NCBI RefSeq assembly: GCF_040741455.2
Contig: NZ_CP160328.2
Location: 1,488,001-1,552,000, forward strand
DNA: 64,000 nt
Direction of reading: 5' to 3'
Origin: Snodgrassella alvi
GTDB taxonomy: Bacteria; Pseudomonadota; Gammaproteobacteria; Burkholderiales; Neisseriaceae
Below, piece by piece: positions 11,001-44,021 of the stretch. The notes under the pieces were generated by a model. That model saw nothing but the letters and a program-made list of their open reading frames with translations. It was not told the DNA's origin and did not search any database. The translations under genes and the position numbers were made by a program. Positions within the stretch are counted from its first letter, which is position 1, and every line of letters begins with the position of its first letter.

Positions 11001-11850
11001 TAGACAGACTACCCAGCTGATTTTTGGTTACCTCATTCAGATTAGTAGACAAGCTGCTTAGCCCAGTTGAGGTGGAGTTAGATAATGTATACAGCTGGCT
11101 TCCATTTACTGCATCGGTAGAGTCTGCAGCAAGACGTCCGGCGCTAATATTGGTAATGCGCTGTGCAGAACCGTCACGACCAGCATCATAAGCTGAAAGT
11201 GAACCATTCCATTGCAAGGTATTAGCCTTCAGCGTCGTCAGATTTTGATTGGTGCTGCTTAAGCTAGCAGTTAAACCAGCCAAGCCTGTTGCTGTACTGC
11301 TACTCAGCGTGCTCAGATTGCTATTGGTACTGTTCAAGCCTGCCGCAGTTACCGTAGACAGACTATAGAATTGCCCGCCGTTAATAGCTTCAGTTGAAGC
11401 TGCATTGACTGCACCTGCACCGATGCCACTCAGTACTTTGGCTTCTCCATTTCGACTGGCATCGTACACACCCTTGCCTGCATTCCACAGCAGCGCATTG
11501 GCCTGCAGTGAAGATACACTAGCATTAGCTGCCTGTAATCCTTTATCCAAAATCTGTAGATTGGAAGAAGTCGTACTGGTTAGGCTGCTTAGACTGTTGT
11601 TGATGCCAGTAATGCTGTTTGTCGTTGTATCAGACAACTGATTCAGCGCATCTTTAGTGCTACTCAGGCCTGTTGTAAGTGTACTCAGGCTAGTGCCATA
11701 GGCAGTAGACAGTGTATTTAACGCTACATTAGTAGAGCTCAGACTTTGATTCAACGTATTGACACTGGCTGTTGTACTGGTGGACAAGTTATACATCTGA
11801 GCACCGTTTACAGCATCAGTAGAATTTGCAGCTATGGAACCTGCAGCTAC
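8023..11850 (-). repeat. Left arm of large inverted repeat (3' third of TAA1)
   Basis: The last ~3.8 kb of TAA1 matches the last ~3.8 kb of TAA2 (about 36600-40379) in opposite orientation. Some blocks, such as 11405-11790 here against 36660-37030, differ at only a handful of bases over several hundred, including synonymous sites. Other blocks within the arm are more diverged, so it is a mosaic, as expected from gene conversion. The outer boundary is approximate. Confidence 0.75.
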
Positions 11851-14800: not shown

Positions 14801-17800
14801 TGCAATGCATTCTGCTTTAATGAATTTAAATTAGTATTGGTTGTAGTCAGACTGTTTTCAGCAGCAGTAGAGAGAGAAGTCAAACCTGTAGACAGGGATT
14901 TATTCAGATTTGCTGAAATATTATCTAGACCGGTAGAAGCAGAACCAGATAAGCTTTGTAGTCCATTATTCAGTTTGTCAGTCAAACTACTAACACTAGT
15001 ATTGGTTGCAAATAGCTGCTTACCTGTAACCACATCACTTGAATCAGCGCTAAGTATGCCATCTGCTACATTAGTAATTCTCTGTGTGGTATTGGCCAAA
15101 CCATGGCTAGCATCATAAGCACCAATATCATTATTCCATTGCAAAGCATCTTTTTGCAAAGCTGAAATATTTGTATTGGCAGATTGCAGACCAGTACTGA
15201 GAATAGTAGACAGACTTTGTATTCCTTTTGCAGACAAGCCTTCTAATGAAGTAGATAAGCTGTTTAGACTTTCTACCGTAGAGCTAGAAAGCGTATACAA
15301 CTGTCTACCTGTTGCTACATCTGTTGAATTAGCTGCAAGTGTGCCATCCATTACATTGGTAATACGCTGATTTTCGCCACCATTTCTGGCACTGTATGCT
15401 TTATCAGCAACACTCCATTGCAAGGCATTTTTCTGCAGATTAGCAATATCTGCCTGACTATCACCTACTGCAGACGATAAGCTGCTGATTACAGACTTAG
15501 AAGAATTCTGTAATGCAGTATTCAGGCTACTTAAACTATTCGTAGTTGATAAAGACAATGTATCTAGAGTGGTATTAGTTGTGTATAACTGAGCGCCAAT
15601 AACCACTTCACTGGAATCTGCTGTCAGATCGCCGCCTGCTACCCCTGTAATCTTCTGAGCATTACCACTGCGGCTGGCATCATAAGCAGTTTTAGTTGAA
15701 TTCCACAAAAGCGCCTGATCTTTTACAGCAGTTAATTTAGTGCTGGTATCTGCCAGACTGGAATTAACTGTTGAAGTAGTACTCGCTAATTTGCCAGCCG
15801 TAACAGTGGAAAGACTATACAGCTGACCACCGTTAATCGCATCAGTGGAAGCCTGATCAGTACTACCTGCTTTAACATGAGTGATCTTCTGATCCACATC
15901 ACCATGTCTAGCATCATACGCACCTTCTTTCCACAGCAATGCATTACTCTGCAGCCCAGTAACACTATTACTAATAGTACCAGCTACCAGAGAAACTTTA
16001 TTAATATCTGCAGTGGTTGAAGAAATTATCTGATCTGAAAGCTGAGACAATCCAGTTGAAACACTACCGGATAAAACTGTCAGATTTGAATTAGTCGTAT
16101 ATAGCTGAGCACCATTGACAGCATCAGTAGAAGCGACAGATGTAATATCACCCGCGGCAACCTGAGTAATTTTTTGAGGGCTGCTGCCACGCAGGGCACT
16201 AAATGCTTTTAAGTTATCATCCCATTGTAAAGCATCAGATTTCAGATTTTTAATACCTGTAGAAGTAGAACTCTGCACGCTTGATAAGCTAGTGCTAACA
16301 TTACCCAGATTAGTGTTGATGTTAGACACTACATTATCCACACGGCTGGATAGTGCAGTAGATAAGGTAGTAATATTAGTATCAATACTGGTTGATAAAG
16401 AAGACAAATCAGCGTTTGCAGACTGTAGGTCTGAACTTGTTGTTGATGCTAAAGTACTGATACTTTTATTAGTGGTAAATAATTGTCCGCCAGTAACCAA
16501 ATCTGATGATGTAGCCTTGCTGATGTCACCAGCAGCAACGTTAGTTACCTTACGATTTGAACCTCCATAGCTGGCATCATAAACATCACCATTAAGCTGC
16601 AAAGCCACATCACTAAGATGGCCAATACTGTTTCCAGTAGCCACAGACAATGAAGAAATAGTCTTATTAGTGGTATCCAGTACTGTACCCACAGATGTAG
16701 ATAATGAGTCTCTTTTAGTATTTGCGTCCTGAATACTTTGGCTGGTTGAAGTAGACAACCGGCTGAGACTAGAATTAGTTGTAAACAACTGCCCACCGTT
16801 AACTACATCTGTAGATGTAGCTTTAGAAATATCGCCGGCTGCAATATTGGTAATTTTTTGTGCTTCACCATTACGGCTGGCATCATACATACCGTTTTTC
16901 AATTGCAGTGCATCAATATTCAGCTGGCTCAGACTAGTGGACGTACTGGTTACAAGAGTATTCAACTGATTTACAGAAGACGACAGCGTTGTGCTAACAG
17001 AAACTGAAGTTGAATTAAAATTGGCTACTGCACTACTGATGCTGCCCAATGAAGATGTGCTTAATGAAGCTAACTCTGTATTAGTAGCGTATAATTGTCC
17101 ACCGTTCACAGCATCTGTCGAACCCGGTGCAGTAATATCACCAGCACTAACATTAATGATTCTTGCTGTTTTTGCTCCACTGGCTGCATGAGATGCATCA
17201 TAAGCCAATTCTTTTGTATTCCATTGCAACGCATCTTCCTGAAGGTGCTTAATTCCCGTAGATGCTGAAGTATTCAAGGAAGTGATATCAGAATTTGCTT
17301 GATTAAAACGAGTGGTAATACTGTTTGTCAGATCAGTTAGATTACTTGTAGTTGTACTTATTGATGTAGAAGCAGATGCCAGAAAATCAGTTAAATTACT
17401 GTTTGTAGTTGACAATCCGGTTGATGTAGACGAAGAAAGTGAACTCAGACTGGTTGATGTGGACGTGCCCAGACTTTTAAGCTGAGCTACATTCACTGCA
17501 TCTGTATCTTGTGTACCAGCAGCAAGTCCAGTAATCTGTCGAGTCAAGCCCGAAGCAACGTCCCCAATTGCTACAGCATTTGCTGTACTGTTCCATACAG
17601 GTGAAGCTGTTGCAGCATCACGGGAGACACTTGTTGATGGATTATACCCAGCCACACCTTTTGAAGTAGAAGCGACAGAACCACTACCTAAAGCAATACT
17701 ATCATCAGATTTGGCAGAAGCACCCTGACCAATTGCTACGCCATTGGTACCACTTACCTGAGTATTATTACCCAATGCCAAAGCATTGGCTGCACTTACA

Positions 17801-29225: not shown

Positions 29226-29348
29226 TACATTTATACAAACATTTATGTTATATTACTTAATAATTTAACTTAATTTTAACCTTTCTTTAAGTTATCAAGA
29301 TATTTTTGATAAACGCATGATTTTAAAAAATTAGGAGTAAACCAATTG
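29226..29348 (+). promoter_or_regulatory. Promoter and leader of TAA2
   Basis: A -10-like TATATT (29249-29254) lies 17 bp after TACATT (29226-29231), with a leader of about 85 nt. The block around the -10 (ACATTTATGTTATATTACTT) and the ribosome site AGGAGTAAACCAATTG match the TAA1 upstream region. The translation start is TTG at 29346. Confidence 0.5.
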
Positions 29349-32300
29349 AATAAAATATATCGTGCGATATGGAACGAATCCACTCAAACTTGGGTGGCTG
29401 CTTCTGAGCTAGCTAAAAGCAAAACCAAAGCGAATACAGTTTCCTGTCAGATGCCTGTTGTATCTACAGTACTAAGTAAGTTTGGTTCTAAAGTATTTAA
29501 AATCGGATTAATTGCTTCAATCGTGAATATGACTTTAGGGATGCCTATTGCATATGCTGCTGGTCGTGCAGCAATAATAGGTGGAGATCCGGGTCGAGGT
29601 TCTGATAATAGAACAGGTAGTTACCTTAACACATCAAGCATCAATGCAGTTCAGATAATGGGAGATAATAGTGATTTTTGTGGTTATGATAGGGTTGCAG
29701 GACGAGATATAAACGGTGCTCAGCGTAATCAAGGCCCCTCAGGGCTTCCTGCTATTTCAGCAATGGAAGAATATTTGCGGTTTGCTCAAAATTATACAGT
29801 AACCGGTACCAGAGGAGCTGTTAATGGTAGAACCCTCAATCCATATGGTACAACTAACCATGTTGAAAATTGGGGTGGCCAAGGATGGACAACTGACCCC
29901 ACTAATGGTTCAAATGGGTTGCCTTACAATCCTCCCAAACCTCCTATATCAGGTTATATGGATCAATATGCTACAGGGGGATATCAAAATGGTTTAGGGA
30001 GTGCCTTTGGTGTAAATTCATTTGTTATGGGATGTGGTTCCTATGCTTCTGGTAATCATTCATTATCATTCGGGACTGGTGCGTTTAATACTGGCGGCGG
30101 GGCACAGGCTGTAGGTAATTTTGCTTTGGCTGGTGGACGAGCTTCCAATGCGATTGGTATCTCATCGCAAGCTACTGGAGTTTCTAGCGTAGCTTTAGGT
30201 TCCGTTGCTAATTCAGATGGCGTAGGAAGTGTGGCACTTGGTTTGATGTCACAGGCTTCTATAGATGGAGCAGTTGCTGTTGGGGTGAAATCTCAGGCAA
30301 GTGGCGACTCTTCAGTGGCCATCGGTAATGACACTATTGCTACTGGTAAACAAGGTATTAGCATTGGTAATGGTAATGTGGTTTATGGAGAACAATCCAT
30401 TGCCATAGGTGGCTCTACCACACCTACTGCATACAAAAAAGATGATGGAACGGAAGCATCTGGTCCGGATGGCTATACCTTTATTAATGCAAACAATACT
30501 TTATCTTTGGGTAATAGTAATAAAAGTACAAGCCCAAATAACGATATTACTGCAGCCAATACGGCTATATTTGGTAACCAAAACACCATTATCAATGCTA
30601 TTTATGATGTTCATGTAATTGGTAGTGGCAATACAGTTGGTAGCACTGATAGCAGCGGTATTGGAGCAACCATAATCGGTAACAATGCTTCTGTTACCAC
30701 AGATAATGGCTTGGCACTCGGTAACAATACTATTGTGAATGGTACTGGCGCCATTGCTGTAGGTACAAATGCCAAAGCTATGGCAGATGGTTCCGTAGCT
30801 TTGGGATCGGATTCAATAGCTAATACAGCTGGTAATGTTTCTGGCTATAATCCAGATACCAATGTGGCTGCTACTGATCCTTCCCTTAGTACGTCCACAT
30901 GGAAAAGCACTACCGGGGCGGTAGCAGTAGGTAACTCTGCTAAGAATATTACCCGTCAAATTACGGATTTGGCTGCTGGTACGCTGGATACTGATGCTGT
31001 CAATGTGGCGCAGCTAAAGAGTTTGTATTCATCTATCTCTGGCAGTGCATCCAGTCTTTCAACAGCGATAGATGCCAATGTATCTGTGGTAAAAACTAAG
31101 ATTAATAGTGCTTCTATTTCAACATCTGATGTTATAACTAATCTTAATCAAAATATTACAAAGGCTTCTGGCGATGCTGATGATAAATTAGCACAAATAA
31201 ATACCGATATTTCTTCTTTAAGTACCTCTACATCTAGCTCTATTGGTGCATTACAAACCAGTGCTTTGGTATTTAAAAATGGTGTTTATAATGTCGGTTC
31301 GGACGATGGCAGAGAAACTAAAAAAATAACAAATCTGACAGATGCTCGTCTTACTGACGACTCCACTGATATGGTTAATGGTGGCCAGTTATTCAGTACC
31401 AATTCTTCGCTGAGTTCTATCTCTACTGCTATTTATACTAATATCAGTAACCTTAACGAAGGTACTTCTAATTTAGTATCTGTCGTTAATACATCGGTAT
31501 CAACAATTGATAGCAATATTAATAGCTTTACTACAACTACTGATAAAGGTATAAAAGATTTACGTGCAGCCATACTCAAATGGAATGGTTCGGATGCATT
31601 TGATGCGGGTAATGAAAAGAAAATAACGAATGTAGAAGCAGGTAGTATTGACAGCGCAGATTCTACTGATGCTGTAACGGGTGCACAGCTGCGTGCCACC
31701 AATATGAAGCTTAATAAGCTGGATAGTGATATTCAGGATAGCCTTACAGACAACAATCTTAAAATTGATAAATTTGTAACCGATACAAATATAGCGTTAT
31801 CAAGTTCGAATAAGTCATTAGATGGTCTGTCTACTTCAATTTCGACTGGATTAAGCCAGATTACACGGAATGCTCTTTTATATGATGCCACTACAGGGGC
31901 ATTTGTTGAAGATAAAAACAAGACGCCGCAAAAAATCTCAAATGCTGCAGAAGGTGATGTTATTGCGGATTCTGATGATGCAATTACAGGTGGCCAGTTA
32001 TACACTGTAAACTCCAATCTAGCGAGTCTTTCTGTATCTGCTTCCACTGGCTGGCTCAATATAAGTGGTAAACGCAGCAGCTTGACAACAGACACTGCCA
32101 ATAGTCTTACTAATCTTTCAACTGCAATAACAAATAACTTAAACAGTTTAACAACTTCGGCTAATTCTAGTCTGAGCACATTAAGTAATTATTTACAAAT
32201 ATTGTCAGATTCTGCATCTACTGCTATCAGCGGTTTGCAGGAAAGTACCATATTGCGTGGTGAAGACGGCTATTTTCATGCCACTCATGATGGTACAGCG

Positions 32301-35300
32301 CAAAAAATCACCGGTGTTGCACCTGGTGATATAAGCAGTCCTAATTCAACAGATATGGTTAATGGTGGCCAGTTATTCAGTACCAATACTGCAATCACTA
32401 ATTTATCTAGTACTGTAAATACGCAATTTGGTAGTTTGTCTGTTTCGGCTTCTCTGTCAGTCGGCCAGAGTCTTGATAAGTTGTCTACGAGCCTGGCTAC
32501 AACTGGCAGTAAAGTTGCTGCATTGCAAGAAGATGCTTTGCAATGGAACGATGATGACGCAGCATATAGTGCCAGTCATGGTGATGCAGATACAAAAATT
32601 ACACATGTCAGTGCAGGTGACATTACCAGTGCAACTTCAACTGATGCAGTTGTCGGCAGCCAGTATTATGATTTGAATACTTCAATAGATGCACGAGTAA
32701 GTACGCTGACCACATCAGCTTTAAGTACTGTGGGAGAAATTAATAGCAGTATTTCCTCTTTGCAACAACAAATGCTCCAGTATACAGATGGTAAATATAA
32801 TGCTAAAAGAGTAGAAAAAGAGCAGAAAATTACAGGTGTTGCTGATGCTGCTTTAAATAGTGCTTCAACCGATGCTATTAATGCTAAGCAGTTATATACT
32901 ACCAATTCAACCTTGGATACAGTTTCAACCACTATTTCCAGCGGTTTATCCACCTTGGCTGGTAATATAAATCAGACAGCAGTAAATACTCTGCAAAGTG
33001 GCATGGTTCTGGTTAATGGACTGAATTCAAGTATCAGTACTTTGAAGAATAATGCTCTGCTGTGGAATGAAACTGATAAGGCATTTAGTGCTACTCATGA
33101 TATTGACGGTAATACTAAAATTACTAATGTGGCCAATGGTTATGTAGCAGCTGGTTCTACAGATGCAATCAATGCCGGCCAGATTTTTTCGTTTTCTACA
33201 TCTGCTTCCACAGGAATACAATCTTTAAGCACTGGATTGAATGGGTTATCAGTACAAAAAATCAAAGAATTATCTAGTTCTATTCAGGCCGGTGTCACTG
33301 GAACTAATAATAAAATTGCAACGTTAAAGCAGAATGTTCTGCTCTGGAATGCTGATGCATATGATGCTAGCCATGGCAGCAGTAGAGGTAAAATTACACA
33401 TGTAGCTGATGGCAATTTGCAATCTAATTCAACTGATGCTGTAACCATGGGGCAGTTATACACCACCAGCACTAGTATCAGTACATTGAATACTGATGTG
33501 GTGACAAAACCAGCTGAGTTATCCTCAAAATTAGATGTTGCTATGGCTGCTACTAATACCAGTCTGAATAATACTATTTCAGGTAGTATCAGCAGCCTGT
33601 CAGATAAAATTAATACCGATATTGGCACAGCCAATTCCAATATTAATGCACTAAAACAGACTGTATTGCAATGGAATGGTAGTTCTTATGATGCCAGCCA
33701 TGGCCAAGTTGGCGGTAAAAATAAAATTATTAACGCTGCACAAGGCAATGTGAATGATAAATCATCCGATGCGGTAATTGGTGACCAGTTGTCAATGACA
33801 AATACCAAAATCTCTGGGCTGACTTCAGATTTAACGTCGCAGCTTCAGAGTTTGTCTGGTTCTTTATCTGGAAGTCTGGCTAGTGTTTCAACCACCATGG
33901 ATAGGTCACTTTCTAGTGGTTTGAATACTTTTGCCTCAACCATTGATACCAGTTTGGTTCCTGTAAATGCTAGTCTAAGTACTATTAAACAGAATGCATT
34001 GCAATGGAATGGCAGCGCTTATGATGCCGGTGGTACTCAAGGTATAAAACGAAAGATTATAAATGTGGATAAAGCTGATTTACAGGCTAAGTCCAGTGAT
34101 GCGGTAATTGGTGCTCAGTTGTTTAGCACTAACAGTCAGATTAGTGCATTATCTTCTTCGTTTGATAACAAAGTATCGGATTTTACAAGTGCAACTTCTA
34201 GTAGTCTAAATAGTCTATCTACAGCATTAGAGAATTCTTCTTTTTCTGGACTAGAAAGCCTTTCTACTACAACAGAGCAACGCCTTCAAGGAATTAACGG
34301 CAAACTCCCTGCCCTTCTGCAGAATGCATTGCAATGGAAAAATGGAGCATATGATGCCAGTCATGGTGTAGTAAATGGTAAAAACCGGATCACCAATGCT
34401 GCAGATGGATCTTTAGTTAAGGGCTCAAAAGATGCGATTACAGGTAATCAGCTGTATAACACCAATTCTGCCATCAATGATCTGGCTAATGAGGTCAAAA
34501 GTGGCATTGGAAATTTATCCAGTGCTCTGAGTACCATATCTGATAAAAATATCTCTACTTTAACTGGGTTGCTTGCTCAGACAAATACCAAAGTTAGTAG
34601 TCTTTCTACAGCAGCAGGAACACAATTAGGTGTGATTAATAATGGTGTATCTGATTTGCAGAAAGACGCTTTACAATGGAAGCGTTTAGATGATTCAGGT
34701 GCAGGAGCATATGATGCCAGCCATGGCATTGCAAATGCTAAAAATACACTGACACATGTATTTTCAGGTAATGTGAAAGAGGGATCGTCTGATGCGATAA
34801 TCGGTGCACAGCTATATAGTACAAACAACAGTATTTCTGTTTTAAACAATAAATTAGCCGATGTATCGGGCAGTATGCAAGCCGGTATCAGTAGTTTATC
34901 AACTTCTTTGGATCAGGTAACCGGTTCTAATTTGGCCAAACTGACTCAAAGCAGAAGTACTATTGAAAACAATATAACTAGCCTGTCTTCAAGTATTTCT
35001 TCAGCTTTAAGTACGGCCGACGGAAGTTTGGGTACTCTCAAAACGAATGCCTTGCAGTGGAAAGACGGAGCCTACGATGCAAGTCGTAATGATAAAAATA
35101 GCCGTATAACCAATGTTGCTAAAGCTGATATTTATGATGGTTCAACAGATGCCATCACTGCAGGACAGCTGTATAGTACCGAAAATAGTTTTGACACTTT
35201 GAACAGTGATATTAATAAGCGTTTTGAAAGTTTTTCAACGACTTTAAGCAGCCTTGTTGATATTGGTATAAGCAGTCTGTCAGCAGGTATAACGGGTATT

Positions 35301-38300
35301 AATACCGGAGTAAGCACATTGCAGCAGAATGCGTTACAATGGGATGCGAGTATTAGTGCTTATGATGCCGGTTCTGCAACTGGTGCCAGAGCTAAAATTA
35401 CTCAGGTTGCCGCCGGTCAGGTAGGAGAAAGCTCGTCAGATGCTGTTATTGGTGCACAGCTGTACAGCCTGTCCACGGTGTCTGATGCAAATCTGACCAG
35501 TTCCTCCAATTTAATGTCTTCCAGCTTAAGTACAATACAATCTTCATTAACGGGTATTTCTGATAAATACTTTACCCAACTCAGTTCTTTGTCAGACAGT
35601 ATTCTAAGCAGTACTATTAATCTGTCAGGAGCATCTGCAAATAGCTTATCAACTCTTTCTGATACTCTGTCCAATAGTATTACCAGTTTATCCAACAGCA
35701 CGAATACTGGCCTGAATAGCCTGACTGCTGATGCCGCAAACAGCCTGAGTAGTCTATCCACGGTGGCTGAATCTGGTATAAGTAGCCTGTCGCAAAGTAT
35801 TTCAACTTCAGCAGGCACTCTGATAACTTCTCTGTCTACAGTTAATCATGATGCAGGCTCATTGAAACAAAATGCACTTCAATGGAATGATTATGCAGCT
35901 GCGTATAATGCTGATCATGGAACGGGTACTGCTCAAAAAATTACAAATGTGTCTACTGGTTTGATAGCATCAGGTTCAAACGATGCTGTGAATGGTGCCC
36001 AGTTGTACAGCTTGTCTACCAGTATGGAAAACACAGCTAATACAGCGTTCACCGGTTTATCAGATGCACTGGTTAGCAGTATTTCCACTGTTGATAGTAA
36101 TTTGCAGAGCTTTTCTGACACTACAACTAGCAATTTGAGCAGATTGGATACCAATCTGCGTACAGCCACAGCTCGTGTAACTACCTTGCAGGCTAATACC
36201 TTGCAGTGGAATGGTAGTGTTTATGATGCCGGCAAAAATGGCACTCCACAGCGTATTACCAATGTTAGCGGTGCTGCTAGTGTGGCTGCAAATTCCACTG
36301 ATGTGATTAATGGTGGTCAATTGTTTAGTCTTTCTAGTTCTACTTCAACTGGTTTAAGTAGTCTTGCAAGTAACCTGAGTGAGATGAGCAAGAATCAGCT
36401 AGGCAGTCTGTCTACCGTCGTTACTAACAGCCTCAGTAGTATCACCAACAATATAGATAGTCTTTCTACTGGCTTGAGTTCTACTACCAACAATGTTGCT
36501 GCATTGCAAAGAGATGCGCTGCAATGGAACAGCGCTAAAGGAGCTTATAGTGCGGATCACGGTACCAATACAGCTCAGCTGATTACCAGTGTAGCTGCAG
36601 GTTCCATAGCTGCAGATTCTACAGATGCTGTAAACGGTGCTCAGATGTATAACTTGTCCACCAGTACAACAGCCAGTGTCAATACTTTGAATCAAAGTCT
36701 GAGCTCTACTAATGTAGCGTTAAATACACTGTCTACTGCCTATGGCACTAGTCTGAGTACACTTACAACAGGCCTGAGTAGCACTAAAGATGCGCTGAAT
36801 CAGTTGTCCGATACAACGACAAACAGCATTACTGGCATCAACAACAGTCTAAGCAGCCTAACCAGTACGACTTCTTCCAATCTACAGATTTTGGATAAAG
36901 GATTACAGGCAGCTAATGCTAGTGTATCTTCACTGCAGGCCAATGCGCTGCTGTGGAATGCAGGCAAGGGTGTGTATGATGCTAGTCGAAATGGAGAAGC
37001 TAAAGTACTGAGTGGCATCGGTGCAGGTGCAGTAAGTGTTGGCTCTACCGAAGCTATTAACGGCGGACAATTCTATAGTTTGTCTACGGTAACTGCGGCA
37101 GGCTTGAACAGTACCAATAGCAATCTGAGCACGCTGAGTAGTAGTACATCATCAGCTCTAGCTGGTTTGACGGGCAGCCTAAGCAGTATCAATCAGAGCA
37201 TGAATAACCTGCAGACAACTGCTTTACAATGGAATGGTAGTTTTTATGATGCTGGTCGTGACGGTTCTGCACAGCGCATTACCAATATTAGTGCCGGACG
37301 TCTTGCTGCAGACTCTACCGATGCAGTAAATGGAAGCCAGCTGTATACATTATCTAACTCCACCTCAACCGGACTAAGCAGCTTGTCTACTAATCTGAAT
37401 GAGGTGACAAAAAATCAGCTGGGTAGTCTGTCTACTATAGTGACAAACAGTCTCAGTACGGTAACGGAAAATGTAAGCAGCCTGTCTACAGGTCTGAGAG
37501 AAACCAATACTAATGTAGCAGCCTTGCAGCAAAATGCATTACAGTGGAATAGTACTAGTAACGCATATGATGCAATACGCAGTAATCGTGCTCAAAGACT
37601 GACCGGAATTATTGGTGGCGATATAAGCCTCACTTCAACTGATGCCATCAATGGCGCCCAGATGTACAGCCTGTCTACTCTGACACAGGCAGGACTGAGC
37701 AGTAGCAGTACGGGGCTGAGCAGCTTAAGTAATGCTTCATCAGCAGCTTTGACTACTGTCAATGATCGCGTGGATACGCTGACCAGCACCACTCAATTAG
37801 GACTGGCTAGTGCCAGCACAGGCTTAACCAGCCTGAGCAGCAGTACTTCAACCGGTCTGACCAGTCTGACATCCAGTCTGAGTAGCACAAATCAGAACCT
37901 GACTACCCTGCAGCAAAATGCTCTGCAATGGAATGGTAGTGCTTATGATGCCGGTAGAAATGGTGCGCCTCAGCTTATTACAAATGTAGCGGCTGGCCGT
38001 GTTTCAGTGGATTCTACTGATGTAGTTAATGGTGGTCAGTTGTTCAGTCTGTCTAGCTCCACTTCAACCGGACTAAGCAGCCTGTCTACTAATCTGAATG
38101 AGGTCACAAAAAATCAGCTGGGTAGCCTATCTACTATTGTTAATGACAGTCTCAGTACGGTAACGAAAAATGTAAGCAGTCTGTCAACTGGTTTAATTGA
38201 AACCAATAGTAATGTGACAGCATTACAGCAGAATGCTTTGCTGAGAAATAGGATAAGTGGTAATTTCGATGCCAGCCGTGAGGGTAAGGATCAAAGACTG

Positions 38301-40379
38301 ACCGGTATTGCAGCTGGAGACATCAATATTACTTCAAGTGATGCTATCAACGGTACTCAGATGTACAGCCTGTCTACTCTGACGCAGGCAGGACTGAGTA
38401 GTACTAGTACCGGACTAAGCAGCTTGAGCAGTGCCTCATCAGCAGCTTTGACTACGGTCAATGATCGCGTGGATACGTTGACCAGCACCACTCAATTAGG
38501 ACTGGCTAGCGCCAGCACAGGCTTAACCAGCCTGAGCAGCAGTACTTCAACCGGTCTGACCAGTCTGGCATCCAGTCTGAGTAGCACAAATCAGAACCTG
38601 ACCACCCTGCAGCAAAATGCCTTGCAGTGGAATAGCACACTGGGTGCTTATGATGCTGGTCATGGTAGCGGTACAGCTCAGCGTATTACCAATGTAGCAG
38701 CTGGTAGCGTGACAGTAGATTCTACCGATGCGGTAAACGGTAGCCAGCTGTATGCATTGTCTGGTTCTACTTCCACTGGTCTGAGCAGTCTGTCGACTGT
38801 AGTTTCATCAACTGTGATTTCAGGTATCAATAGTATCAGTAGCTCTATGTCTACCGGATATGAGAGTCTGTCACGCAGTATGAGTACAACAAGCGATAGC
38901 CTGAACAAACTAACTTCTAGCACGAGTACAGCTTTAAGCAGTCTGTCTACCAGCTATGATCTGACTCAGAAAGATGTGAAACAGCTGAAGGATAAGAGCC
39001 TGCAATGGGATGAGGATAAAGGTGGATTTGATGCTGGAAAGACAAATAGTCTGACCCGAGCTGCTACTTATGGCAAGGTTATCAATTTAGCTGATGGCTC
39101 GGTTGATCAGGGCTCACATGATGCAATTAATGGTGGACAGCTATACTTACTGAAAAATGATGTGACCAGCCTTTCTACAGGTACCAGCACTAGCTTGTCT
39201 TCATTAAACAGTGCTTTAAGTGAGTTATCCACAGGTAATATTATTACTAACATTACCAACCTGACTCAAAATGCCTTACTGTGGAATGGTAGTGCATATG
39301 ATGCTAGTCATGGCAGTGCTACGGCACAACATATTACCAATGTGGCTGACGGTAATATGGCCAAAGGGTCTTTAGATGCTATTAATGCTGGTCAGCTGTG
39401 GGCTGTAAGACAAGATTATAATAATTTGTCTACAATGGTTAATAGCCTGCCAACCAGTAATGTTTCTGATGATTCGCTGAATAGTCTGTCTACATCAGTT
39501 AGCACAATTGTTGCTAGCCAGATTGCATCGATAGCTTCGGCTCTTGGTACTTCACGAAATTCAGCAGGAAGTATCAATCCACCCAAGTATGATATTTCTA
39601 CACCTACAGGTGGTAATGTATCAGCAGATAATGTCGCTGATGCACTGCAAAATCTGGAGAATTATGGTACGAAATATGTGAAGATCAACTCTGCTAAAGC
39701 TGGATCAATTGCTCAAGGTGCTAATTCAATTGCAGTGGGCGGAGCAGCAATGGCCAGTGGTACATCAGCGATTGCGATTGGTGATTCAGCCAGTGCTCCC
39801 GCAGCTAATGGTGTGGCTCTGGGTAGCAATGCTCAGGTGAAACAGACCGGAGGTATAGCACTAGGAGCTGGATCAGTTGCGAGTGTTGCTGCCGGACAAG
39901 AAGGATATATTCCAGTAACCGCAACGTCGCAGCAGGCAGCGGCAATCCGTGCCACAAGAAGTACGGAAGGAGCGGTATCTGTGGGTGATGCATCTAAAGG
40001 TGTATACCGTCAGATAACCGGTGTGGCAGCAGGTACTGCTGACACTGATGCTGTGAATGTAGCTCAGCTTAAAGGTGTGGATAATCAGGTTACCAGAGTT
40101 AATGAATATGTTAATCAGCTGAATGATAATATTCATCATGTTGAGCGCAGAGCTTATTCAGGTACAGCCATGGCCATGGCGCTGTCTGGGGCTTATTTGC
40201 CTTCACTGAGTTCTGGTGAGCAGACTGTCGGTATTGGGGTAGGTGCATATCGTAGCTATGGTGCCGTTGGTGTAAACTATAAGGCAGCCAGCAAAAACGG
40301 CAAAGTTACGTGGGGTGCAGGTGTTTCCACTACTGGTAAAGAAGTTGCTTTCAATTCAGTACTTGGCTTTAAGTGGTAA
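29346..40379 (+). CDS. Giant YadA-like trimeric autotransporter adhesin TAA2
   Basis: A paralogue of TAA1, 3677 aa. It has the same plan: ESPR (5-24), hydrophobic signal segment (about 53-71, ending IAYA), a variable N-terminal segment with a Pro/Gly-rich insert (about 180-215), a beta-roll head (about 220-530), a neck with DTDAVNVAQLK, about 25 stalk modules, a second head (about 3457-3505), a neck near 3552, and a YadA anchor from about 3601 ending in a terminal Trp (GFKW). The mature protein shows only two cysteines, C112 and C230, placed as in TAA1. The head and first two thirds of the stalk differ from TAA1, while the last third is closely similar. It starts with TTG behind AGGAG. Three DUF2827 genes follow on the same strand, possible modifiers of the Ser/Thr-rich stalk. 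The adhesion target is unknown. Confidence 0.95.
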   Translation: MNKIYRAIWNESTQTWVAASELAKSKTKANTVSCQMPVVSTVLSKFGSKVFKIGLIASIVNMTLGMPIAYAAGRAAIIGGDPGRGSDNRTGSYLNTSSINAVQIMGDNSDFCGYDRVAGRDINGAQRNQGPSGLPAISAMEEYLRFAQNYTVTGTRGAVNGRTLNPYGTTNHVENWGGQGWTTDPTNGSNGLPYNPPKPPISGYMDQYATGGYQNGLGSAFGVNSFVMGCGSYASGNHSLSFGTGAFNTGGGAQAVGNFALAGGRASNAIGISSQATGVSSVALGSVANSDGVGSVALGLMSQASIDGAVAVGVKSQASGDSSVAIGNDTIATGKQGISIGNGNVVYGEQSIAIGGSTTPTAYKKDDGTEASGPDGYTFINANNTLSLGNSNKSTSPNNDITAANTAIFGNQNTIINAIYDVHVIGSGNTVGSTDSSGIGATIIGNNASVTTDNGLALGNNTIVNGTGAIAVGTNAKAMADGSVALGSDSIANTAGNVSGYNPDTNVAATDPSLSTSTWKSTTGAVAVGNSAKNITRQITDLAAGTLDTDAVNVAQLKSLYSSISGSASSLSTAIDANVSVVKTKINSASISTSDVITNLNQNITKASGDADDKLAQINTDISSLSTSTSSSIGALQTSALVFKNGVYNVGSDDGRETKKITNLTDARLTDDSTDMVNGGQLFSTNSSLSSISTAIYTNISNLNEGTSNLVSVVNTSVSTIDSNINSFTTTTDKGIKDLRAAILKWNGSDAFDAGNEKKITNVEAGSIDSADSTDAVTGAQLRATNMKLNKLDSDIQDSLTDNNLKIDKFVTDTNIALSSSNKSLDGLSTSISTGLSQITRNALLYDATTGAFVEDKNKTPQKISNAAEGDVIADSDDAITGGQLYTVNSNLASLSVSASTGWLNISGKRSSLTTDTANSLTNLSTAITNNLNSLTTSANSSLSTLSNYLQILSDSASTAISGLQESTILRGEDGYFHATHDGTAQKITGVAPGDISSPNSTDMVNGGQLFSTNTAITNLSSTVNTQFGSLSVSASLSVGQSLDKLSTSLATTGSKVAALQEDALQWNDDDAAYSASHGDADTKITHVSAGDITSATSTDAVVGSQYYDLNTSIDARVSTLTTSALSTVGEINSSISSLQQQMLQYTDGKYNAKRVEKEQKITGVADAALNSASTDAINAKQLYTTNSTLDTVSTTISSGLSTLAGNINQTAVNTLQSGMVLVNGLNSSISTLKNNALLWNETDKAFSATHDIDGNTKITNVANGYVAAGSTDAINAGQIFSFSTSASTGIQSLSTGLNGLSVQKIKELSSSIQAGVTGTNNKIATLKQNVLLWNADAYDASHGSSRGKITHVADGNLQSNSTDAVTMGQLYTTSTSISTLNTDVVTKPAELSSKLDVAMAATNTSLNNTISGSISSLSDKINTDIGTANSNINALKQTVLQWNGSSYDASHGQVGGKNKIINAAQGNVNDKSSDAVIGDQLSMTNTKISGLTSDLTSQLQSLSGSLSGSLASVSTTMDRSLSSGLNTFASTIDTSLVPVNASLSTIKQNALQWNGSAYDAGGTQGIKRKIINVDKADLQAKSSDAVIGAQLFSTNSQISALSSSFDNKVSDFTSATSSSLNSLSTALENSSFSGLESLSTTTEQRLQGINGKLPALLQNALQWKNGAYDASHGVVNGKNRITNAADGSLVKGSKDAITGNQLYNTNSAINDLANEVKSGIGNLSSALSTISDKNISTLTGLLAQTNTKVSSLSTAAGTQLGVINNGVSDLQKDALQWKRLDDSGAGAYDASHGIANAKNTLTHVFSGNVKEGSSDAIIGAQLYSTNNSISVLNNKLADVSGSMQAGISSLSTSLDQVTGSNLAKLTQSRSTIENNITSLSSSISSALSTADGSLGTLKTNALQWKDGAYDASRNDKNSRITNVAKADIYDGSTDAITAGQLYSTENSFDTLNSDINKRFESFSTTLSSLVDIGISSLSAGITGINTGVSTLQQNALQWDASISAYDAGSATGARAKITQVAAGQVGESSSDAVIGAQLYSLSTVSDANLTSSSNLMSSSLSTIQSSLTGISDKYFTQLSSLSDSILSSTINLSGASANSLSTLSDTLSNSITSLSNSTNTGLNSLTADAANSLSSLSTVAESGISSLSQSISTSAGTLITSLSTVNHDAGSLKQNALQWNDYAAAYNADHGTGTAQKITNVSTGLIASGSNDAVNGAQLYSLSTSMENTANTAFTGLSDALVSSISTVDSNLQSFSDTTTSNLSRLDTNLRTATARVTTLQANTLQWNGSVYDAGKNGTPQRITNVSGAASVAANSTDVINGGQLFSLSSSTSTGLSSLASNLSEMSKNQLGSLSTVVTNSLSSITNNIDSLSTGLSSTTNNVAALQRDALQWNSAKGAYSADHGTNTAQLITSVAAGSIAADSTDAVNGAQMYNLSTSTTASVNTLNQSLSSTNVALNTLSTAYGTSLSTLTTGLSSTKDALNQLSDTTTNSITGINNSLSSLTSTTSSNLQILDKGLQAANASVSSLQANALLWNAGKGVYDASRNGEAKVLSGIGAGAVSVGSTEAINGGQFYSLSTVTAAGLNSTNSNLSTLSSSTSSALAGLTGSLSSINQSMNNLQTTALQWNGSFYDAGRDGSAQRITNISAGRLAADSTDAVNGSQLYTLSNSTSTGLSSLSTNLNEVTKNQLGSLSTIVTNSLSTVTENVSSLSTGLRETNTNVAALQQNALQWNSTSNAYDAIRSNRAQRLTGIIGGDISLTSTDAINGAQMYSLSTLTQAGLSSSSTGLSSLSNASSAALTTVNDRVDTLTSTTQLGLASASTGLTSLSSSTSTGLTSLTSSLSSTNQNLTTLQQNALQWNGSAYDAGRNGAPQLITNVAAGRVSVDSTDVVNGGQLFSLSSSTSTGLSSLSTNLNEVTKNQLGSLSTIVNDSLSTVTKNVSSLSTGLIETNSNVTALQQNALLRNRISGNFDASREGKDQRLTGIAAGDINITSSDAINGTQMYSLSTLTQAGLSSTSTGLSSLSSASSAALTTVNDRVDTLTSTTQLGLASASTGLTSLSSSTSTGLTSLASSLSSTNQNLTTLQQNALQWNSTLGAYDAGHGSGTAQRITNVAAGSVTVDSTDAVNGSQLYALSGSTSTGLSSLSTVVSSTVISGINSISSSMSTGYESLSRSMSTTSDSLNKLTSSTSTALSSLSTSYDLTQKDVKQLKDKSLQWDEDKGGFDAGKTNSLTRAATYGKVINLADGSVDQGSHDAINGGQLYLLKNDVTSLSTGTSTSLSSLNSALSELSTGNIITNITNLTQNALLWNGSAYDASHGSATAQHITNVADGNMAKGSLDAINAGQLWAVRQDYNNLSTMVNSLPTSNVSDDSLNSLSTSVSTIVASQIASIASALGTSRNSAGSINPPKYDISTPTGGNVSADNVADALQNLENYGTKYVKINSAKAGSIAQGANSIAVGGAAMASGTSAIAIGDSASAPAANGVALGSNAQVKQTGGIALGAGSVASVAAGQEGYIPVTATSQQAAAIRATRSTEGAVSVGDASKGVYRQITGVAAGTADTDAVNVAQLKGVDNQVTRVNEYVNQLNDNIHHVERRAYSGTAMAMALSGAYLPSLSSGEQTVGIGVGAYRSYGAVGVNYKAASKNGKVTWGAGVSTTGKEVAFNSVLGFKW
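36600..40379 (+). repeat. Right arm of large inverted repeat (3' third of TAA2)
   Basis: Inverted counterpart of the TAA1 arm (8023 to about 11850). The 36660-37030 block differs from its partner by only a few bases; for example the peptide segment around TTNSITGINNSLSSLTSTT is identical in both. The left boundary near 36600 is approximate, where similarity falls to ordinary paralogue level. Confidence 0.75.
37209..38606 (+). repeat. Two-copy tandem repeat, 699-bp period, inside TAA2
   Basis: CTGCAG-led junctions recur at 37209, 37908 and 38607, a period of 699 bp (233 aa, two stalk modules). The DTLTSTTQLGLASASTGL block is nearly identical in the two copies. It is equivalent to the 708-bp pair of TAA1, so the duplication predates the split or has been copied between the genes. 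Confidence 0.8.
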
Positions 40380-40396
40380 TTAATCCTGACTAAACA

Positions 40397-40440
40397 GACT
40401 TCTGGACTTCCGTGTGAAGTCCGGAAGTCTTATTTATTCA
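40397..40440 (+). terminator. Terminator after TAA2
   Basis: A 14-bp stem with one G-U pair (40397-40410 with 40416-40429) and a CGTGT loop, followed by TTATTTATT. It lies between TAA2 and the first DUF2827 gene, so the modification genes probably depend on read-through or their own promoter. Confidence 0.8.
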
Positions 40441-40476: not shown

Positions 40477-41622
40477 ATGCGCATCGGTATTTCTGTTATT
40501 ACTCATGCCAACCAGAACATCTGGGAAAATGGTATGGGTCAGAATGTTATATTTTTGGTTCAAAGCCTGAAGGCTATACCTTTTGTTAAATCAGTGGATT
40601 TAATTAATGTTGGTGGTCAGCCCCGTATGGCTGAACAAATTGATTTGAATCTGTTTGATCTGCGATTGATGTCAGAACAGGAAGCTATAGATGCTTTTGA
40701 TGTCATTATTGAACTGGCTGGTGCGCTATCTCCACAATGGTTAGCCTTGCAGCGTGCTCGTGGTAAAAAGGTGGTATTTTATTGTGTTGGCCAGCCTTAT
40801 GTGGGATTATCAGAATATAATGTGTTTGAAAAACCAACTAGTTTTCCGCCAGTAGATCGTTGTGATGAAGTATGGCTTTTGCCAAAAGACAAAGCTTATA
40901 TTCCCATGCTGCGGACAATGTATCGTTGCCCGATATACATTACGCCTCATTTATGGGATCCAATGTTTGTTTCCAGACGCAAACAGGAAATCAGTGAACA
41001 AGGTCTTAATTACGGCTGGCATAGCAATGTGCATGATGAGGTAAAAACACCTCTGAGTGTAGCTATATTTGAGCCCAATATTTCAGTTGTTAAAACTTCT
41101 TCTATTCCCATGTTAGCTTGTGATGAAGCTTATCGTCACGAACCGCAATCAATTGAAATGATGCATGTGCTTAACACTTTGCACATGAAAGATCATTTAA
41201 CCATGCTACATCTGGCCAATTCTCTGAATCTTGTTAAAGATCATAAGGCATGTTTTTATGGCCGTCACGATATAGTCGGTTTTATGGCGCAGCACGCCAA
41301 TGCTGTGATTTCACATCAATGGTGTAATGATCACAATAATCTTTATATGGACGTACTGTATGGAGATTATCCATTGATTCATAATACTCCATGGTTAAAA
41401 GAGTTCGGTGCTGGATATTATTATCCAGATTTTGATGCACTTGAAGGTGGTAGACAAATAATCCAGGCTTGGCTACATCATGAAGAAAATTTGAGTAGTC
41501 AGCGTCAAGCTTCACAGGCACTTTTTAAAGCAACGGATCCTTTATCAGATGCCAATATTAAAGCCCATGTACAACTATTATCTAATTTGTGTGCTGATCG
41601 TCCAGAATTATTAAGAGGTTAA
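40477..41622 (+). CDS. DUF2827 family protein, copy 1
   Basis: A 381-aa protein of the DUF2827 family, whose alternating alpha-beta pattern resembles GT-B glycosyltransferases. It starts MRIGISVITHANQNIWENG (ATG at 40477; the 21 residues readable upstream lie over the TAA2 terminator and are rejected). Conserved blocks are WENGMGQN (16-23), EPNISVVKTSSIPML, SHQW and YPLIHNTP. No signal peptide or membrane segment is seen, so it should be cytosolic. The next family member begins 3 bases after its stop. Placement behind a giant Ser/Thr-rich autotransporter suggests protein glycosylation before export; this is inference. Confidence 0.85.
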   Translation: MRIGISVITHANQNIWENGMGQNVIFLVQSLKAIPFVKSVDLINVGGQPRMAEQIDLNLFDLRLMSEQEAIDAFDVIIELAGALSPQWLALQRARGKKVVFYCVGQPYVGLSEYNVFEKPTSFPPVDRCDEVWLLPKDKAYIPMLRTMYRCPIYITPHLWDPMFVSRRKQEISEQGLNYGWHSNVHDEVKTPLSVAIFEPNISVVKTSSIPMLACDEAYRHEPQSIEMMHVLNTLHMKDHLTMLHLANSLNLVKDHKACFYGRHDIVGFMAQHANAVISHQWCNDHNNLYMDVLYGDYPLIHNTPWLKEFGAGYYYPDFDALEGGRQIIQAWLHHEENLSSQRQASQALFKATDPLSDANIKAHVQLLSNLCADRPELLRG

Positions 41623-41625
41623 CCC

Positions 41626-42756
41626 ATGTCGTCCGTGTCTTCACTTCGTGTAGGTGTTTCGATTTATGTACGTAAAGGAGCTCAGTCGCTTTGGGAAAAT
41701 GGAATTTTCCAGAATTGTCTGTTTCTGGCAATGTTGTTAAAAAAATCTCCAATTGTCAGTAACGTGGTTCTGGTAGCTGGATCAGGTGATGGGGATATGC
41801 AGGATGCTATGAATTTTCTGCAGGATTCACCAGTACCGGTAATTGATATGGCCACTGGTTTGAATGAGTTGGATGTCATGATAGAGATGAGTGCCCAGCT
41901 TTCCAAAGAATGGATGATAGAGTTCAAAGCCAAAGGTGGAAAAGTAGTCAGTATGCGCGTAGGTAATGATTATGTAATTGATATTGAGCGTATGCTGTTT
42001 GATAAGCCGCCTGCCTTGCTGATTACCGGTGCGCCTTACGATGAAGTATGGACATTGCCAGAGTATGAAAAAACCTGTAAGCCATATTTTGCCAGTACAT
42101 TTCGCACGCCGGTAAAGATCATGCCGCATTTATGGAGTCCGGTTATTCTTAATCGTGCTTGTGAAAAATTGCCAAAAGGCGAGCAGTTTGAATACCAGCC
42201 AGGCCGCAATCGCTGGCGTATTGGTATGTTTGAGCCAAATATGTGTATGGTGAAAACCAGTTATATTCCTATGCTGGTATGTGAAAATGCACATCGGCTG
42301 AACCCCAATTTCATCGAACATATCTATGCGTGCAATACTATGAATTTGAAGGATCAGACAGCTTTTAATCTGTTTGCTCAAAGTCTGGATATTGTCCGCC
42401 ATGGCTTGACTTCGTTTGAAGGTCGCTACCCGATCTGGCAGGTGGTATCTATCTATTGTGATGCAATTGTTTGCCATCAATGGGAAAATGCTCAGAATTA
42501 TATTTACTATGAGGCCTTATATGGTGGCTACCCGCTAATTCATAATTCGCATTTGATTGGTGACTGTGGCTATCGTTATCACGATTTTGATTGTGAAGAG
42601 GGTGGCAAAGTATTGGCAGAAGCCTATAAAATGCATGATGAAAATTTGAGTACTTACCGCGAGCGTGCAAAAGTTTTTCTGGCTACACTAGATCCTGAGG
42701 CAGAAAGTAATGTCCGCTGTTATACTGATGCTCTTGAGTCATTGTTTAAAGCCTAG
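41626..42756 (+). CDS. DUF2827 family protein, copy 2
   Basis: A 376-aa paralogue of the preceding gene with the same blocks: WENGIFQN (23-30), DVMIEMSAQLSKEW, YDEVWTLPEY, MFEPNMCMVKTSYIPMLV, CHQWENAQNYIYYEALYGGY and PLIHNSH. It starts 3 bases after copy 1, so the two are surely co-transcribed. The duplicates have diverged well beyond recent duplication, suggesting distinct acceptor or donor roles, or successive steps. No membrane segments are visible. Confidence 0.85.
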   Translation: MSSVSSLRVGVSIYVRKGAQSLWENGIFQNCLFLAMLLKKSPIVSNVVLVAGSGDGDMQDAMNFLQDSPVPVIDMATGLNELDVMIEMSAQLSKEWMIEFKAKGGKVVSMRVGNDYVIDIERMLFDKPPALLITGAPYDEVWTLPEYEKTCKPYFASTFRTPVKIMPHLWSPVILNRACEKLPKGEQFEYQPGRNRWRIGMFEPNMCMVKTSYIPMLVCENAHRLNPNFIEHIYACNTMNLKDQTAFNLFAQSLDIVRHGLTSFEGRYPIWQVVSIYCDAIVCHQWENAQNYIYYEALYGGYPLIHNSHLIGDCGYRYHDFDCEEGGKVLAEAYKMHDENLSTYRERAKVFLATLDPEAESNVRCYTDALESLFKA

Positions 42757-42833
42757 ATTTTACTAATTTTGCTTACACTTTAGTATAATGTATACATAAA
42801 ACCTGCCAGCAATCAAACATTTCTAATGAAATT

Positions 42834-44021
42834 ATGAACTTATCTAATACTCCGAATTTAATTTCCAGCCATGGACAGGACGCTGCACCAGCACGTTTGC
42901 GTATTGGCATTACCATTGGTCTGAGTCACCCAAAAGAAACATTGTGGAATAATGGTATCAAGCAGAACGCAGTTTTTCTTGCTGACGCACTGAAAAATTG
43001 TCCTAATGTTGATTCTGTGGTGTTGGTAAACACAACTGATGTACCAATTACATCAAGTTTGCCATGGGATTTGGAGATATGGCCAACTAAGAGCTTCTTA
43101 GAGGCCAAAGATCAGATAGATGTTTTGATTGAGCTGGGTGGGCAAATTGGTGCTGAGCAGACGGCCTATATCAAAGACAGAGGAGTACGCTTAATATCTT
43201 ACTGCTGTGGCTTTGAATATATCCATATGATGGAGTCGGTTTTATTCTCTCGTAATATGGGTGGCGGTAATCTATTTATCAACCAGCGTTATGATGATAT
43301 TTGGATGATTCCGCAGGTAGCCAATTGCAGCAAGGCATATTTTGAAGTATTCCGACGTCATGATGCGCGTGTGGTGCCATTTGTCTGGAGCCCAGTATTT
43401 CTGATTCAGAAAACCGCTGCAATGCCATTTCAGGGCTTATGGCAGGTGCCGGTATCTCGTAAGGGCTGGCGCCTGTCTGTAATGGAACCGAATATCGATG
43501 TTGTGAAGTTCTGTTTATATCCGATTTTGATTGCGGAAATGGCTTATCGTTCTGAACCGGAAGCTATTAATATTCTGCAGGTATGCAACACATTGCCGAT
43601 GGCTCAAAAATCCATGGAATTCATTGCTTTGATGAATCAGCTGGATATTGTGAAAAATCGAAAATCTGTTTTTCTGGGTCGTTATGATACACCAACTTTT
43701 CTGGCAACCAATACTGATGCAGTAATTTCTCATCAATGGGAAAATCCGCTTAACTATTTCTATTTGGAAGTATGTTGGCAAGGTTATCCGTTAATTCACA
43801 ATGCTGAGCTGATTTCAGATTTGGGTTATTATTATGCTGGTAATGATGTGGAAGCTGGTGCAAAACAATTATTTGCAGCAATGAGCGATCATGCTTATAA
43901 CGCTGCTCATTATGTATATGACCAGCGTCAACAGATTGCTCGCTTTTTACCAAATAATACTGATCTGGTGGCCAGTTATTCTGCATTGCTGACAGAAGTA
44001 ATGGCCAGACCATTGCGTTAA
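42834..44021 (+). CDS. DUF2827 family protein, copy 3
   Basis: The third and most divergent member (395 aa). It has an N-terminal extension of about 20 residues, WNNG instead of WENG (38-41), GGQIGAEQTAYIKDRG, MEPNIDVVKFCLYPILI, SHQWENPLNYFYLEVCWQGY and PLIHNAE. A 77-base gap separates it from copy 2 and contains a TATAAT-like sequence near 42783, so it may have its own promoter. It ends 6 bases before the convergent dehydrogenase gene. Confidence 0.83.
   Translation: MNLSNTPNLISSHGQDAAPARLRIGITIGLSHPKETLWNNGIKQNAVFLADALKNCPNVDSVVLVNTTDVPITSSLPWDLEIWPTKSFLEAKDQIDVLIELGGQIGAEQTAYIKDRGVRLISYCCGFEYIHMMESVLFSRNMGGGNLFINQRYDDIWMIPQVANCSKAYFEVFRRHDARVVPFVWSPVFLIQKTAAMPFQGLWQVPVSRKGWRLSVMEPNIDVVKFCLYPILIAEMAYRSEPEAINILQVCNTLPMAQKSMEFIALMNQLDIVKNRKSVFLGRYDTPTFLATNTDAVISHQWENPLNYFYLEVCWQGYPLIHNAELISDLGYYYAGNDVEAGAKQLFAAMSDHAYNAAHYVYDQRQQIARFLPNNTDLVASYSALLTEVMARPLR

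Follow-up and report, generated by a model that had tools for sequence, protein, structure and literature searches.

A DUF2827 gene trio beside a giant trimeric autotransporter of Snodgrassella alvi: candidate glycosyltransferases for Ser/Thr stalk repeats

Introduction

Three genes of the DUF2827 family (PF10933), named here A, B, and C, lie directly behind the gene of a giant trimeric autotransporter adhesin (TAA), TAA2, in Snodgrassella alvi. The window analyzed, i.e., the whole stretch of 64,000 nucleotides, covers positions 1488001-1552000 of the 2.29-Mb single-contig genome. Structural models and sequence comparisons make it likely that the three proteins together O-glycosylate SLST stalk repeats of TAAs in the cytosol before Sec export. 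A dedicated system for glycosylation of the fibre was proposed in the initial annotation, and this idea is supported by the fold of the A and B models and by the co-occurrence with TAAs. Beyond that annotation, the sequences point to a new link, as DUF2827 appears to be tied to one particular Ser/Thr repeat. This SLST repeat is nearly confined to DUF2827 genomes.

The DUF2827 trio and the autotransporters of the window

DUF2827-A (40477..41622, plus strand, 381 residues), DUF2827-B (41626..42756, plus strand, 376 residues), and DUF2827-C (42834..44021, plus strand, 395 residues) are complete open reading frames (ORFs). Each matches PF10933 over its full length (1-362; gathering score 25 bits), with E 1.9e-109 and 366 bits for A, E 1.1e-142 and 476 bits for B, and E 4e-136 and 454 bits for C. 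They are the only DUF2827 genes of the genome and share 33-35% pairwise identity. B starts 3 bp past the stop of A, and 97 bp separate the end of TAA2 from the start of A. DUF2827-B is 99% identical to that of S. alvi wkB298. Between Snodgrassella species, the ratio of non-synonymous to synonymous substitution rates (dN/dS) is 0.05-0.11 for A, B, and C, low values which show that all three are maintained by purifying selection. No signal peptide is evident in any of the three proteins, and their peak hydrophobicity in 19-residue windows is 1.25-1.70, the peak of B being a core helix of its model. The initial annotation had described three diverged paralogues right after TAA2, lacking signal peptides and membrane segments, and both parts of this description agree with the present data. 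A match of C alone to the Toll/interleukin-1 receptor (TIR) protein Cap12 of cyclic oligonucleotide-based antiphage signaling systems (CBASS) reached 19.6 bits against an NCBIfam cut-off of 450 and was judged to be due to chance. The phage records searched gave no match.

TAA2 (29346..40379, plus strand, 3,677 residues), the presumed acceptor, contains ESPR, YadA_head, and 22 YadA_stalk stretches. The part of its stalk carrying SLST/SIST motifs, delimited by motif positions and SLST-profile matches, spans residues 513-3383 (30882..39495, plus strand). The second giant TAA, TAA1 (8023..19086, minus strand), has 24 YadA_stalk stretches, YadA_anchor, and ESPR; there is no DUF2827 gene beside it, and its stalk has the SLST motif of TAA2. 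SLST is the commonest 4-mer of both proteins, with 34 copies in TAA2, 31-fold above the expectation from composition, and 38 copies in TAA1, 28-fold above it. The stalks had been called extraordinarily rich in Ser and Thr. This is an overstatement for the window, where the two residues make up 28% of TAA2 and 30% of TAA1, but it suits the Burkholderiales partner TAAs, in which they reach up to 53%. The Snodgrassella stalk is also more diverged than the Burkholderiales stalks. The apparent start codon of both TAA genes is TTG (29346 and 19086), with AGGAG just upstream in the case of TAA2.

Between TAA2 and A, a terminator-like hairpin (40396..40430, plus strand), possibly a partial terminator, consists of a 15-pair stem followed by TATTTATT. 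A similar hairpin occupies the same position in five other Snodgrassella loci. Since it parts TAA2 from A, the trio may be read less than the fibre, and the hairpin could set the fibre:enzyme ratio.

Fold and predicted active site

The AlphaFold (AF2) models of A and B, built with a deep family alignment, reached a mean predicted local distance difference test score (pLDDT) of 94.3 and 94.4, respectively, and a predicted template modeling score (pTM) of 0.92 each. The two Rossmann-like domains of both models match solved enzymes of the glycosyltransferase B (GT-B) fold with a Foldseek probability of 1.00. The matches of A include MshA (2.7e-9), BshA, WaaG, GtfA, and an OGT homologue; those of B include 7qsg (6.9e-10), BshA, HepE, MshA, WaaG, and GtfA. 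Nearly all top matches of the two proteins, among them a mannosyltransferase and SenB, are GT-B sugar-nucleotide enzymes, and GtfA is a streptococcal transferase attaching O-linked N-acetylglucosamine to an adhesin. As modeled, A and B are GT-B glycosyltransferase folds, and C is predicted to be one by its homology to them. Because the template modeling (TM) scores against solved matches are near 0.6 and identity is 10-15%, the matches indicate a shared fold and not membership of a known family. The PDB sequence search, run both with the sequence of B and with a profile of 115 rows, gave nothing relevant and no glycosyltransferase at E<=10, and no similarity to TibC was found with the profile at the same threshold. 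The Pfam scan of 115 DUF2827 members gave no glycosyltransferase family and no relevant match besides PF10933, and neither Pfam nor the PDB sequence search found a GT41 domain among these members.

Residues W23, N25, G26, Q29, N30, D83, E87, G113, E203, N205, K210, N288, N291, H306, and N307 are invariant across A, B, and C; at position 296, all three groups have E or D. The EX7E motif is characteristic of retaining GT-B enzymes. Inspection of the alignment suggests that N288-X7-E/D296 lies at the position of this motif, with the first Glu replaced by Asn, and that K210 is a candidate for diphosphate binding. Several of the invariant residues probably fall in donor-site loops, as judged by alignment with established GT-B motifs, not by docking. 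The GT-B-like fold suggested by the initial annotation is thus borne out by the A and B models, in which NX7[E/D] would take the place of the donor motif.

Orthologue groups, gene order, and spread

The locus set comprised 80 loci from genome records and the window; the named ones belong to Neisseriaceae (mostly Snodgrassella) or Burkholderiales. The 213 DUF2827 proteins collected fall into three clades, A (80 proteins), B (82), and C (51), each with a long stem and each holding both Snodgrassella and Burkholderiales sequences. A, B, and C are, by their sequences, three ancient non-redundant orthologue groups common to these bacteria, which is compatible with the earlier suggestion that three copies act in sequence on a glycan or on different acceptors. 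A TAA gene is present at 72 of the 80 loci. The order is TAA-A-B-C at 25 loci, TAA-A-B at another 25, and A-B-C-TAA at nine. All 24 genomes that were re-searched contain at least three DUF2827 copies, including Variovorax with A-B alone beside the TAA. Since A and B are nearly always adjacent and C moves, an A+B unit with a separate C step is suggested.

The adjacency of A and B, and GtfA among the structural matches, would also agree with one or two members of the trio being pseudo-enzymes, i.e., a chaperone or acceptor-binding subunit comparable to GtfB for GtfA, with only one protein catalyzing. This variant, itself compatible with stalk glycosylation, is considered rather unlikely, as the donor-side residues K210, N205, N288, and E/D296 are retained in all three groups, and a dead subunit would not usually keep them.

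Snodgrassella A branches within Comamonadaceae sequences (99% support), and Snodgrassella C groups with Xenophilus; for these reasons, horizontal acquisition of the module is probable. Among the Neisseriaceae searched, DUF2827 was found only in 11 of 14 genomes of the genus Snodgrassella (own genome included) and in one genome of another genus. The module is also present on Burkholderia glumae plasmids, one of which was typed as conjugative. On the conjugative plasmid p76s2p (L134), the module is accompanied by further YadA-like genes, an OmpA-family gene, a response regulator, and a peptidylprolyl isomerase.

Among the recurring gene clusters at the sampled loci, none next to the trio comprises flippase, polymerase, ligase, or sugar-nucleotide genes, and the only cluster besides DUF2827 that recurs widely is an opposite-strand shadow ORF. 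In some Paraburkholderia and Burkholderia loci, tetratricopeptide repeat (TPR) proteins of 555-642 residues are encoded between the TAA and A (L064 1768-5312, L092 5134-8771, L096 4668-6335, L106 2406-4274, and L107 3904-5760), several of them weakly GT9-like at the C-terminus. In the Paraburkholderia loci such extra proteins would fit the addition of further sugars.

Other neighbors were also noted. A conserved protein of about 200 residues, hydrophobic at its N-terminus and matching no family, is encoded beside the trio in L095 (12768-13388) and in nine other loci, across several genera. In the Neisseriaceae bacterium ESL0693, a 915-residue ORF without a Pfam or NCBIfam match lies between the TAA and A (L039 6031-8778). 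At L230 and L231, DUF2827 lies beside short, seemingly truncated TAA genes.

Co-occurrence with trimeric autotransporters and the SLST repeat

Co-occurrence with TAAs had been set as a test of the glycosylation proposal, and the presence of a TAA at most sampled loci is matched by a survey of 200 Burkholderiaceae genomes, 55 with DUF2827 and 145 without. YadA_anchor was found in 52 of the 55 and in 70 of the 145 (Fisher 1.4e-10, this and the following p-values being descriptive). The three DUF2827-positive genomes without YadA_anchor have a single copy or weak DUF2827 matches only. Plain Ser+Thr richness was considered as the linking trait; it was significant (p 2.8e-4) but overlapping, and the SLST motif was used instead.

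SLST occurs in all 55 triad-locus TAAs analyzed (53 TAAs of the fetched loci, plus TAA1 and TAA2), at a median density of 35 per 1000 residues versus about 1 expected from composition. The TAAs lying elsewhere in DUF2827-positive genomes are bimodal, as 18 of 39 have 9-43 SLST per 1000 residues and the others essentially none. Among 40 TAAs taken from Burkholderiaceae without DUF2827, none exceeded 1 per 1000, the TAA comparison sets having been drawn from the strongest anchor matches. Stricter selection of TAA ORFs by the C-terminal residue, by which several ORFs were lost, gave 8/27 versus 0/39 (p 3.9e-4), in the same direction as the longest-ORF counts. An SLST-repeat profile, which was built with one segment of the window and may therefore favor its close relatives, matched 46 of the 200 Burkholderiaceae genomes, 43 of which have DUF2827. 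Considering only TAA-bearing genomes, it matched 43/52 with DUF2827 and 3/70 without (Fisher 2e-20). In 369 genomes of the class, the profile matched the own genome only. Within the genus Snodgrassella, SLST was found in 9/9 full-triad genomes and in 0/5 others. The spacing of SLST is 7, 11, 14, or 18 residues, i.e., heptad or hendecad and coiled-coil-like, with Leu at core positions and Ser/Thr at most other, outward-facing positions.

In L226 (5780-13250), from one of the three DUF2827-negative genomes with SLST-like TAAs, SLST-bearing TAA pieces flank a 526-residue ORF, an arrangement resembling a broken gene. In L225, likewise from one of these three genomes, a gene located about 6 kb downstream (15418-16287) begins, by eye, like a family-25 glycosyltransferase.

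A second pairing comes from a Neisseriaceae genome of another genus (G423), which has one deep-branching DUF2827 outside groups A, B, and C. The TAA beside it contains no SLST; instead, 221 copies of SSAT were counted in AGSSATA heptads, and Ser and Thr make up 39% of the protein, as compared to 18% in another TAA of the same genome. Here, then, a distinct DUF2827 accompanies a distinct Ser/Thr heptad.

Proposed mechanism

In the proposed mechanism, A, B, and C would act as cytosolic GT-B glycosyltransferases on the unexported TAA chain. Sugars would be attached to the outward-facing Ser/Thr of each SLST-type heptad, and the targets would be the adjacent TAA and, in trans, other SLST TAAs of the cell, e.g., TAA1. 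The trans action is suggested because SLST-positive TAAs also occur away from the trio in DUF2827-positive genomes, and TAA1 shares the repeat but has no trio of its own. A and B may work as a pair, in priming or as a complex, and C, independently mobile, would add a further step. Since the sampled loci show no recurring sugar-nucleotide genes next to the trio, the donor would be a housekeeping nucleotide sugar. We infer the cytosolic site from the lack of an evident export signal together with the sugar-nucleotide fold; the Ser/Thr acceptor, the order of steps, and the A+B pair are likewise deduced.

Counter-arguments and alternative explanations

Several observations weigh against this proposal. 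The GT-B fold is also that of sugar-nucleotide 2-epimerases. The density of SLST in Snodgrassella is about one quarter of that in Burkholderiales, and two Snodgrassella genomes with A+B only have no SLST TAA. Conversely, three genomes (G539, G625, and G650) are DUF2827-negative yet have SLST-like TAAs, and several DUF2827-positive genomes lack the repeat, their TAAs being truncated or absent nearby. In four loci (L211-L214) from genomes of 2.1-2.7 Mb, DUF2827 trios lie among other, partly GT-like-looking genes with no TAA nearby. The genomes compared are related, so that kinship inflates the p-values and makes the comparisons look more independent than they are. A single mobile unit could also simply carry SLST TAAs together with DUF2827. 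As a separate observation, one of the small genomes just mentioned (G515) has an SLST-rich TAA elsewhere (L233).

It might be considered that the trio makes a surface polysaccharide, lipopolysaccharide, or other glycan, and that the link with TAAs reflects shared ecology or a mobile element. WaaG and HepE among the fold matches, the trios of small genomes situated among partly GT-like-looking genes with no local TAA, and the conjugative B. glumae plasmids that carry the module would agree with it. We nevertheless consider such a role unlikely, because the flippase, polymerase, ligase, and sugar-nucleotide genes do not recur beside the trio, the TAA linkage is near universal at the sampled loci, and the distribution of one stalk repeat follows that of the enzymes. 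That the repeat is a neutral lineage marker, co-inherited by linkage with enzymes that target another protein, is improbable even though the module has probably moved as a unit (Snodgrassella A among Comamonadaceae, C with Xenophilus), as the repeat recurs in non-adjacent TAAs of DUF2827-positive genomes and not in TAAs of DUF2827-negative ones, and an independent deep DUF2827 (G423) is paired with a different Ser/Thr heptad.

Comparison with known systems and significance

Glycosylation of adhesins in the cytosol is already known, and stalk glycosylation by DUF2827 would share the logic, not the sequence families, of TibC/AAH, HMW1C, and Gtf. TibC and AAH, the bacterial autotransporter heptosyltransferases (BAHT), are cytosolic heptosyltransferases glycosylating autotransporters of the AIDA-I type (PMC4358343). 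Similar to DUF2827, a GT-B-like cytosolic enzyme is encoded beside the autotransporter, and BAHT hyperglycosylates Ser of the repeats before export; however, TibC is a single enzyme forming a 12-mer, has an iron finger and a beta-barrel, and acts on autotransporters of the AIDA-I type (PMC4358343), whereas DUF2827 comprises three paralogues without a sequence match to it. HMW1C and the N-glycosyltransferases (NGT) of family GT41 also are neighboring GT-B enzymes modifying an adhesin in the cytosol, but they are N-linking at Asn sequons of two-partner-secreted adhesins (PMC3012730), again with no sequence match to DUF2827. GtfA/GtfB with their extenders resemble the trio as a multi-enzyme cluster for one Ser-rich adhesin, and GtfA is a structural match; that system is Gram-positive, uses accessory Sec, and mixes glycosyltransferase families (PMC5207161), whereas the trio is one family in three copies beside a trimeric autotransporter. 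The TPR glycosyltransferases of the FlmG type O-glycosylate surface proteins in the cytoplasm and may be compared to the weakly GT9-like TPR proteins of some Paraburkholderia trio loci, although the target of FlmG is flagellin (PMC7591256) and no such TPR protein lies beside the Snodgrassella trio.

SLST repeats were described in BoaA/BoaB (PMC2955633), BMA1027 (PMC4021183), and BCAM2418 (PMC7142374), and O-glycosylation of BCAM2418 was speculated from its Ser/Thr enrichment (PMC7142374). These proteins have the same SLST signature as the triad-locus TAAs, and the papers describing them name no enzyme. In the searchable literature, no enzyme was named for SLST repeats. In the literature searched, which covered few subscription papers, no function was given for DUF2827, the family being named in a single database paper.

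In its widest form, for which we see the chances as evenly balanced, the proposal would make DUF2827 a new glycosyltransferase family and a two- or three-step O-glycan line that reads the coiled-coil heptad (SLST or SSAT) as an acceptor code, turning stalks into mucin-like rods; the module would be spreading horizontally, conjugative plasmids included, among plant, soil, and insect-gut bacteria. The present analysis gives a testable function to a Pfam family of unknown role and a candidate enzyme set to SLST repeats, which are known from Burkholderia adhesins since 2010 but had no enzyme assigned to them. Glycosylation of TAA stalks and its enzymes become directly testable in a harmless and genetically tractable bee symbiont. 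If the proposal is true, DUF2827 would be a protein O-glycosyltransferase family whose acceptor is a simple heptad.

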